From positions 1 to 45,023 of the forward strand of contig NZ_LT699738.1 in the NCBI RefSeq assembly GCF_900155365.1: 45,023 bases of DNA, in the 5' to 3' direction. This stretch comes from Collinsella bouchesdurhonensis. Its GTDB lineage: Bacteria; Actinomycetota; Coriobacteriia; Coriobacteriales; Coriobacteriaceae. Positions 36,067 to 38,189 of this stretch are shown piece after piece. The notes below the pieces were generated by a model. The model was not told the origin of the DNA and made no database searches. It worked only from the letters and a program-made list of their open reading frames with translations. A program made the position numbers and the translations under genes. The stretch's first letter is position 1. Each line of letters starts with the position of its first letter.

Positions 36067-36573
36067 CTACTCCGTCTGTGCCTCGGCGATCTTTTGCTTG
36101 GTACGCTCTACCAAACCGCCGGCATTGATGATCTCTTGGATAAACGGCGGGAACGGCTGCGCATGGAAGATCGCGCCTGTGGTCTCATCCACAATCGTGC
36201 CGGTATCGGCATCGACACTCACCACATCCCCGTCTGAGATAGCGTCCACGGCCTCCGGGCATTCCAGAATCGGCAGGCCCATGTTGATCGAATTGCGGTA
36301 GAAGATGCGCGCGAAGCTTTTGGCGATCACGCAGGAAACACCTGCAGCCTTGATGGCGACCGGCGCGTGCTCGCGCGAGGAGCCACAGCCAAAGTTCTCG
36401 TCGGCAACAATGATGTCACCGGCCTTTACGCGCTCCACAAACGTGGTATCCAGGTCCTCCAGACAATGCTTGGCAAGCTCCGCCGGATCTGACGTGTTGA
36501 GATAGCGAGCCGGAATGATGGCATCGGTATCGATGTCACGGCCATAACGAAAAACAGTTCCGTTGAATTTCAT
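36067..36573 (-). CDS. leuD: 3-isopropylmalate dehydratase small subunit
   Basis: A 168-residue aconitase-like swivel domain protein of the short, archaeal/actinobacterial LeuD type: [15 protein letters not shown] and [19 protein letters not shown]. It pairs with LeuC to isomerise 2- to 3-isopropylmalate. The ATG at 36573 has AAAGGTGA upstream; this ribosome site lies just beyond the arm of the structured repeat at 36590-36708, which could influence its access. Confidence 0.95.
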
Positions 36574-36589: not shown

Positions 36590-36708
36590 GGGAGGGAGGG
36601 GCCAGGCTTTATTTGCCATTTCAGACAGTCCTGCTCGCACGAACGTGACATTTAGTCACGTTCGGCTCGTGCGGAAACTCATGTCAAATAAAGCCTGGTC
36701 CCTCCCTC
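36590..36708 (+). repeat. Structured repeat, copy A
   Basis: Outer stem: 36592-36615 pairs with 36685-36708 over 24 positions, one being G-T. Inside: a conserved strand ATTTCAGACAGTCCTGCTCG... (36618-36640), a 9-bp apical stem (GAACGTGAC 36641-36649 with GTCACGTTC 36655-36663) with loop ATTTA, a GGCTC bulge and GTGCG that pairs back to CGCAC, then GAAACTCATGT. The same architecture is found in copy B on the other strand. Confidence 0.8.
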
Positions 36709-36810
36709 ACACATCATGTTCTTCTATCGAATAAAACTTCCACAACGCAAAGTAGTTGGACTTGCAGCACTACGCTTTTATGGCCCAGCTGCGCCATGCT
36801 TTTTTCAGCA

Positions 36811-36919
36811 GGGGCTTTGGGCTTTGCTCGCTATGAGTTCCGCACGAGCCGGAGAGCACTTAATGTGCTCTCCGTGCGAGCAGGACTGTCTGAAATAGCG
36901 AGTAAAGCCCAAAGGCCCC
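36811..36919 (-). repeat. Structured repeat, copy B (opposite orientation)
   Basis: Reading leftward, the conserved 23 bases of 36896-36874 equal 36618-36640 of copy A, and GGCTCGTGCGGAA-CTCAT equals copy A with one base less. The apical stem is different in sequence, GGAGAGCAC with GTGCTCTCC (36873-36865 and 36859-36851), loop ATTAA, yet also 9 bp. The outer stem (36811-36834 with 36895-36919) is likewise different but paired, with one bulge and one mismatch. Copy B begins eight bases before the leuC stop side of the gap. Confidence 0.8.
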
Positions 36920-36926
36920 AGCGCGC

Positions 36927-38189
36927 TTACAGGTCGCTCGGCAACGCAATGTGGCCGGCGACGGCAGAAGCGGCGCAGACGGCAGGGCTTGCCAGGTAGA
37001 CCTCGGACGTGGGGTCGCCCATACGGCCCACAAAGTTACGATTGGTCGAAGAAATGCAGCGCTCCCCTGCAGCGAGGATGCCCATGTAGCCGCCCAGACA
37101 CGGGCCGCACGTGGGCGTGGAAACCACACAATGGGCGTTGATGAAGACATCCATCAGGCCCTCGTGTACGCACTGGAGCCAAACCTTCTGGGTTGCAGGA
37201 ATCACGATGCAGCGAACGTTCTCGGCAACCGTGCGCCCGCGCAGGACATCGGCCGCGGCGCGCATATCCTCGATACGGCCGTTGGTACACGAACCGATAA
37301 CGGCCTGGTCGACCGCGATATGACGGCTCTCGGCAACGGGATGCGTATTGCTGGGCAGATGCGGCCAGGACACGCACGGCTCGATCTCGGCAGCGTCGAT
37401 CTTGATGACCTGCTTATACTCGGCATCCGCATCGGGATGATACTCAACCGGCGTGCGGCGAGCGCGGGCAGCCACGTACTCGCGGCACTTGTCGTCCACC
37501 TCAAAGAGACCGGCCTTGCCGCCCGCCTCGATAGCCATGTTTGCGATGGTCAAACGTCCCTCAACAGAGAGGTTCTCAATCGTCGAGCCGCCAAACTCCA
37601 TAGCGCAATAAAGGGCGCCGTCAACACCGATCTTGCCGATAATATGCAAGATGATGTCCTTTGCCGTGGCACCCGCAGGAAGCTCGCCATCGATTTCAAA
37701 GCGAATGGTCTCGGGCACCTTGAACCAAGCACGGCCCGTTGCCATACCCACGCCGGCGTCGGTGGATCCCACGCCGGTTGAGAAGGCGCCGATGCCGCCA
37801 TAGGTGCAGGTGTGGGAATCGGCGCCGATCATGAGGTCGCCGGGCACCACAACGCCCTGCTCGGGCAACAGTGCATGCTCAATACCCATACAACCCTGCT
37901 CAAAATAGTTGACGATCTTATGCTCATGGGCAAAATCGCGCGTGACCTTGGTCTGCTCGGCACTCTTGATGTCCTTATTGGGCGCGTAATGGTCGGGCAC
38001 GAGGCAAATCCGCTCGCGGTCAAAAACTCCAGCACCAATCTCGCGCACCGTCTTGATGGCGATGGGAGCCGTAATGTCGTTGGCGAGCACCAGGTCGAGG
38101 TCGCACTCAACCAGCCGGCCCGGCACAACCTCATCGAGTCCGGCGTGGGCGGCCAAAATCTTCTCTGCCATGGTCATGGGACGTGCCAT
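36927..38189 (-). CDS. leuC: 3-isopropylmalate dehydratase large subunit
   Basis: A 420-residue aconitase-type 4Fe-4S enzyme subunit. Key motifs: GADSHTCTYGGIGAFSTGVGSTD, GSCTNGRIEDMRAAA and TPTCGPCLGGYMG, which contain the three cluster cysteines. The length fits the short LeuC class that works with a separate small LeuD. The ATG at 38189 has AGAGGAAA upstream. Second gene of the leu operon, 60 bases after leuA. Confidence 0.96.
   Translation of the reverse strand: MARPMTMAEKILAAHAGLDEVVPGRLVECDLDLVLANDITAPIAIKTVREIGAGVFDRERICLVPDHYAPNKDIKSAEQTKVTRDFAHEHKIVNYFEQGCMGIEHALLPEQGVVVPGDLMIGADSHTCTYGGIGAFSTGVGSTDAGVGMATGRAWFKVPETIRFEIDGELPAGATAKDIILHIIGKIGVDGALYCAMEFGGSTIENLSVEGRLTIANMAIEAGGKAGLFEVDDKCREYVAARARRTPVEYHPDADAEYKQVIKIDAAEIEPCVSWPHLPSNTHPVAESRHIAVDQAVIGSCTNGRIEDMRAAADVLRGRTVAENVRCIVIPATQKVWLQCVHEGLMDVFINAHCVVSTPTCGPCLGGYMGILAAGERCISSTNRNFVGRMGDPTSEVYLASPAVCAASAVAGHIALPSDL

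Follow-up and report, generated by a model that had tools for sequence, protein, structure and literature searches.

What kind of element can occur twice, in opposite orientations, within one biosynthetic operon, with stems that differ in sequence and stay paired? The question arises from a 45,023-nt stretch of Collinsella bouchesdurhonensis DNA (contig NZ_LT699738.1; hereafter, the window), in which a sequence-only reading had proposed two inverted copies of a structured element between leuC and leuD, either an unrecognised structured RNA or the substrate of a REP-type transposase. We confirmed both copies, A and B, and their structure in the sequence. Read along the minus strand, leuA and leuC come first, then copy B, a spacer of 102 nt and copy A, and lastly leuD and leuB (gene names from NCBIfam). 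The gap between leuC (36927..38189, minus strand; TIGR02083, 663.3 bits) and leuD (36067..36573, minus strand; TIGR02084, 247 bits, cut-off 245.85) measures 353 nt and is filled by the two inverted copies and the spacer. Copy B starts 7 nt past the leuC stop codon, and copy A ends, with its 5' arm, 18 nt ahead of the leuD start codon.

Copy A (36592..36708, plus strand; model match 36592-36705, 89.7 bits, E 1.7e-20) consists, all on the plus strand, of a 5' arm (36592..36615), a left core block (36618..36641), an apical hairpin CGAACGTGAC-ATTTA-GTCACGTTCG (36640..36664), a right core block (36663..36682) and a 3' arm (36685..36708) that matches the 5' arm in 23 of its 24 pairs, the remaining one being G.T. 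Copy B (36811..36919, minus strand; model match 36810-36922, 92.7 bits, E 2.6e-21) has the apical hairpin CGGAGAGCAC-ATTAA-GTGCTCTCCG (36850..36874, minus strand) and paired arms with a one-base bulge and mismatches. Common to both are the left block ATTTCAGACAGTCCTGCTCGCACG (24 nt) and the right block CGGCTCGTGCGGAA followed by CTCAT, with one extra A in copy A. The apical stems, 10 bp each if the closing C-G pair is counted, differ and nonetheless pair, as had been claimed, around the loops ATTTA (A) and ATTAA (B). The outer stems were likewise said to differ and remain paired; the pairing holds, but their sequences are not entirely unrelated, as the 5' arms are alike (GGGGCC-AGGCTTTATTTGCCATTT in A, GGGGCCTTTGGGCTTTACTCGCTATTT in B) and copy A shows 83.75% identity to inverted copy B across 80 nt (BLAST). 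Both copies match one 16-mer exactly; with up to three mismatches, 0.34 matches would be expected in the window, and two or more such matches appeared in 5 of 100 window shuffles. The spacer (36709..36810) had no full-length match among 42 other Collinsella genomes, 15-27-nt pieces of it being found in 31 of them (E 0.005-0.97). It contains a single terminator-like hairpin with a T run at 36779-36798 on the plus strand, opposite to the leu genes, which is weak and falls within the range of shuffles. Scanning the window copies for intrinsic terminators (a GC stem with a T run directly after) revealed none at A or B.

The two copies are members of a dispersed family of intergenic hairpin (palindrome) elements of the Coriobacteriia. 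The exact core pattern CAGACAGTCCTGCTCG-N10-38-GCTCGTGCGGAA occurred in 32 contigs of the genome_contigs collection, every title belonging to the Coriobacteriia, in Adlercreutzia, Slackia, Gordonibacter, Enteroscipio, Parvibacter, Collinsella and other genera. A covariance model of the element (R1) matched 201 of 396 sampled Coriobacteriia genomes, representing 60 of 153 genera, at E <= 0.01, in a survey that scored nine candidates per genome and whose E-values are rough. The recurrence anticipated by the sequence-only reading, which would have taken a lack of further copies as its refutation, was thus borne out: the genome containing the window has 8 model matches at E <= 1, of which 7 score under 1e-7, and five genomes searched in depth contain 34, 31, 18, 30 and 34 (33, 23, 18, 29 and 33 after overlapping opposite-strand matches were removed by hand). 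In all of this material the architecture consists of a fixed centre, CAGACAGTCC..GCTCGC and GCTCGTGCGGAACTCGC with few variants, around an apical hairpin of variable sequence, and of arms of ~15-55 bp that are specific to each site and complementary to each other. Core variants exist (e.g., GCGCAAGAC..TTTGCGTGC), and a subclass in Eggerthellaceae has no apical hairpin. A second Collinsella core subfamily, GGTCAAGTCC...GCGGAATCTACGAAA, has the same architecture (loci L124-L126; G001:C1 near 379805).

Also as the sequence-only reading had supposed, the element corresponds to no known RNA family: Rfam 15 at gathering scores found only tRNAs in the window, and ten loci searched at E <= 1 gave only three sub-threshold matches to miRNA families, which we take as chance. 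The literature searched contains no description of the family, which is apparently an undescribed family of interspersed palindromic repeats. A study reporting 250 palindromic candidate structured RNAs from human microbiomes (PMC8040213) mentions Collinsella once in its main text, for a different motif located before L7/L12; its supplements, outside the literature searched, could hold an unnamed overlap.

An alignment of 36 copies had 35 invariant columns; since 35 of the 36 had been retrieved by an exact pattern that fixes 28 core letters, the conservation of the centre, including the invariant middle helix (9 pairs), is partly by construction. RNAalifold proposed 32 pairs, 20 of them with double-sided changes. 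In this structure, derived from the same alignment as the pair counts, 90.1% of the paired cells are complementary versus 69.9% in shuffled alignments and 34-46% with slid partners, and the covariation score is 0.489 versus 0.140 in shuffles; pairing in the outer helix taken alone is 80.4%, that in the apical helix 97.2%. One of five covariation measures, the number of double-change pairs, did not exceed shuffles (20 vs 18.8; 138 of 500 shuffles reach 20). The covariation is strong, in agreement with the sequence-only reading, but it is not RNA-like, as it shows no excess of G.U. In covarying RNA stems, G.U pairs are the usual intermediate. We counted 995 apical pairs from 102 distinct copies, whose stem strands come in 54 different sequences (five further copies, devoid of apical hairpin, stand outside this count): 986 were Watson-Crick, 3 G.U, 4 A.C and 2 other. 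The distal arms of 107 deduplicated copies, chosen out of 111 because their arms paired and their apical stem was perfect, showed 24 G.T and 28 A.C versus 1242 Watson-Crick pairs. Thirteen tRNAs from element loci, used as a control, gave 22 G.U and 0 A.C among 292 pairs, with the proviso that ARAGORN itself favours pairing. Close to the core, the proximal arms exhibited a recurring A.C mismatch (108 A.C vs 27 G.T), which may be part of a recognised shape or represent G.U on the opposite strand; in the latter case, it could be tolerable for an RNA read from that strand and would count against a DNA reading. From these pair counts, we infer that the hairpin would matter or act as DNA, in cruciform or single-stranded form, and not as RNA.

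How the element came to lie between leuC and leuD can be followed in relatives. We detected leuD at E <= 1e-20 in 12 of 43 Collinsella genomes. The relative with the most similar leuD (G028, 90%) has a leuC-leuD gap of 12 nt versus 353 nt in the window, the kind of empty site for which the sequence-only reading had suggested searching, and a core was absent from the 400 nt ahead of leuD in all 11 other leuD-bearing Collinsella relatives. Therefore, the A/B unit entered the window lineage. The insertion is visible among relatives too distant to define exact breakpoints, and no parent transposon was found according to the MITE criterion of terminal inverted repeats plus target duplication. A clean single-element insertion with target duplication was seen at none of the sites compared, which counts against a mobile-element reading. 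Across 400 kb compared among G001, G002 and G023, the element sites were mostly shared and the arms often were not; the sharing of most compared sites within this C. aerofaciens-like group indicates slow movement.

The arms change in ways that preserve their complementarity. At one site in G001 and G023, flanks 98.5-98.9% identical enclose arms that are unrelated yet paired in both genomes, although such whole-arm replacement could alternatively reflect allele exchange between strains. Upstream of leuS, G000 and G002 have arms in common, whereas the distal arm of G023 differs on both sides. At the 3' end of nrdD (21 loci, one of them incomplete), two arm-and-core haplotypes alternate, with 26-39 pairs in 19 of the 20 parsed copies; G012 is a recombinant with a broken outer stem (14 of 17 paired), and in G030 both of two arm mismatches have been changed to the exact complement, giving 39 of 39 pairs. 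In the same gap, a relative devoid of the element (G036, locus L185) has a different palindrome, GGCGGGAAAATGGGGACAGTCCCTATTTTCCCGCC, which looks like a separate REP-type repeat. At another site, the core has disappeared from G018, where the 3' arm is now exactly complementary to the 5' arm; at a further one, G023 has the outer hairpin alone, without core, a state in which insertion into a hairpin and core loss are indistinguishable. Natural re-copying of one arm from the other is observed in G018 and G030. Fold-back template switching in the course of DNA synthesis would both create the arms and maintain their match.

In several copies, the palindrome runs on, decaying, into the gene on the 5' side (the end of nrdD, a gene ending in KIFKFN, and others). 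At thrB, the gene start reappears in inverted form past the arm (24 of 26 nt), with a score of 42 versus a maximum of 26 in 1000 shuffles. Anchored palindromes extending 18 nt or more into the gene called on the 5' side were found in 7 of 74 copies (four in G002, two in G178 and one in G124, the gene calls of the last two genomes being less reliable; an eighth case, G124:2123587, rests on a doubtful start call). None of the 74 copies had an anchored palindrome into the 3'-side gene, only one unanchored 11-mer overlapping such a gene; this asymmetry is partly expected, given that 3' genes are farther away (median 233 vs 26 nt) and that selection acts against damaging genes. In a permutation test, 6 of 56 copies exceeded the 99% level versus 1 of 56 for direct copies, one of the six being an unanchored 14-mer taken as chance and the permuted set containing some shared regions. 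A simple model in which each arm copies its flank was set aside, as it is clear only in a minority (7 of 74). The inverted gene edges suggest fold-back copying of the 5' flank, at insertion or later. It is conceivable, and we propose it tentatively, that integration or spread of the element itself builds the arms, the core-bearing strand folding back to copy the 5' flank, with the arms later rewritten as a unit.

Positions relative to genes come from a gene caller based on codon usage, which, tried on two stretches of a Collinsella aerofaciens record, found 69 of the 73 annotated stop codons. The 53 copies of G000, G002 and G016 were all intergenic by these calls: in tandem gaps, 15 were sense and 18 antisense (p 0.73), and a further 19 lay in convergent gaps and 1 in a divergent gap. 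We claim this lack of gene orientation for Collinsella only because the caller was poor on high-GC contigs, where 10 of 28 copies fell inside called ORFs. Inclusion of the less reliable calls for G178 and G124 gave 28 sense, 20 antisense, 19 convergent and 2 divergent copies, and 5 inside called ORFs (n = 74). The 5' side tends to be near a gene edge, stop or start (median 26 nt; 34 of 53 within 40 nt), and the 3' side is distant from genes (median 233 nt; 3 of 53 within 40 nt). In sense copies, the 5' side lies a median of 17 nt behind a stop codon (n = 15); in antisense copies it is looser (median 82 nt). The neighbouring genes are unrelated (leuC/leuD, nrdD, leuS, thrB and pheS). Seven inverted pairs, plus then minus with the 5' sides outward, occur in G000 (one), G002 (four) and G016 (two), the window pair included, and their spacers are unrelated by BLAST except for one apical-hairpin-like fragment in one G002 pair. 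In the spacer of the G002 pair at 1996-2397 of locus L089, the apical-like fragment GAAGGCCACATTAAGTGGCCTTC is perhaps the relic of a third copy. Two copies in Adlercreutzia sp. ZJ176 (L046, 6940-7206), 154 nt apart, point the same way, in contrast to the inversion usual in pairs. In four Eggerthellaceae genomes (L018, L032, L047 and L130), the element is directly behind pheS, in the same orientation and with different but paired arms; pheS was identified by NCBIfam in L018, L032 and L130 and by a shared C-terminal motif in L047, and the gene after the element, recognised by its start, is presumably pheT.

Could the hairpins nevertheless work as RNA? The proposal of a structured RNA was not supported, as the copies have no gene orientation and no excess of G.U, and A and B are opposed within one operon. 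A strand-specific cis-regulatory RNA (riboswitch, leader or protein-binding site) controlling leuD and other genes is very improbable: the strong covariation around fixed internal-loop bases is consistent with it, but it is contradicted by the opposed copies, the 15 sense versus 18 antisense positions, the diversity of the neighbours and the absence of an Rfam match. Any putative effect on leuD expression would be incidental. An RNA hairpin that functions regardless of orientation, capping or protecting transcript ends as a terminator or exonuclease barrier and kept paired by RNA selection, would explain why divergent (promoter) gaps are avoided (19 convergent vs 1 divergent), why the 5' side often sits just behind a stop codon (at the 17-nt median of the 15 sense copies) and why the element follows pheS in four genomes. 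We nonetheless regard it as unlikely, given that the G.U excess is absent in either reading, that no T run stands behind the window copies (only the spacer hairpin was found), that 18 of 53 copies are antisense in tandem gaps and that a simple barrier has no need for a fixed centre.

The distribution of the element follows that of neither RAYT-type transposases nor reverse transcriptases. The suggestion of a REP-type transposase substrate held for the habit of the element (inverted pairs, intergenic, palindromic) but not for the enzyme: the Y1_Tnp domain (PF01797) was detected in 3 of 12 genomes (G000, G002 and G212) and not in G016, G178, G124 and G128, each with 18-34 element matches. A classical REP/BIME moved by a RAYT (Y1) transposase, to which the Y1_Tnp frames of 265-288 aa in G000 and G002 would lend themselves, was therefore rejected and is quite improbable, the more so as the consensus lacks GTAG or CGTC and the genomes contain 18-34 matches and not >100, the usual number for REP/BIME (PMC2817692). 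These RAYT-sized frames are G000:C11:435323-435661 (L162) and those at 881179 and 760130 of G002:C1 (L161 and L163). Reverse-transcriptase-driven insertion was rejected on similar grounds. The RVT_1 domain (PF00078), present in 5 of 24 genomes, three with the element (G001, G124 and G307) and two without it (G112 and G114), is unrelated to element presence, and it was not found in G000, G002, G016, G023, G178, G128 and G254, all of them carriers; target-primed reverse transcription of an element RNA followed by fold-back synthesis over the flank, which would account for the inverted copies of 5' gene edges, is thus extremely improbable. We also rejected a mobile unit with a conserved spacer, as BLAST similarity among the seven pairs is confined to the elements (apart from the apical-like fragment); a phage carrier, as the exact core pattern had 0 occurrences in viral_contigs and no match in phages; and a plasmid carrier, as the sole record labelled 'plasmid' appears chromosomal. 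This record, NZ_OY725717.1 (900 kb, plasmid 6 of C. aerofaciens), contains ribosomal protein and RNA polymerase genes and is probably a piece of chromosome.

We favour a REP/BIME-like DNA hairpin element whose arms are kept matched by template switching, and give this explanation as a whole a probability of about 0.6. The element is probably non-autonomous, and its centre would be bound by a putative enzyme or architectural protein that spreads it. A widespread repeat of a common class of gut bacteria has been absent from Rfam 15 and from the literature searched, and it offers a warning case, with covariation that looks like that of RNA, no G.U intermediates and footprints of template switching. 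If the fold-back reading is true, a copy would acquire, next to it, an inverted version of neighbouring DNA, which may include a gene end or start, and would insert or be maintained in a self-templating manner that differs from cut-and-paste, copy-out, RAYT and retro-insertion; the origin and upkeep of perfect stems would then be testable at many orthologous sites in close relatives.

Several known repeats offer points of comparison. ERIC/IRU, NEMIS/Correia and RUP are hairpin-forming intergenic elements of ~100-150 bp with conserved ends. The element resembles them in size, hairpin and intergenic location and differs in that its ends and arms vary between copies. With the REP/BIME of RAYT systems, as outlined in PMC2817692, it shares a location between genes, a palindromic form, inverted pairs joined by linkers, stems that change without losing their pairing and a non-autonomous habit; it is longer (~100-180 bp vs 20-40 bp), has its fixed part in the middle and not at the foot, has site-specific arms, and occurs in ~20-30 copies per genome without a consistent Y1 transposase, versus >100 copies with RAYT. 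REPs have a GTAG or CGTC tag at one end of their 20-40-bp palindrome (PMC3733652), whereas the 36-copy consensus has no such tag and its ends are not conserved. A parallel for the arms comes from template switching, which, as described in PMC8794818, makes perfect stems by reverse-complement copying and produces multi-base compensatory changes in one event. That work concerns RNA genes; here, the one-step compensations that it predicts are seen in the arms of a dispersed element family, together with an event of core loss in G018.
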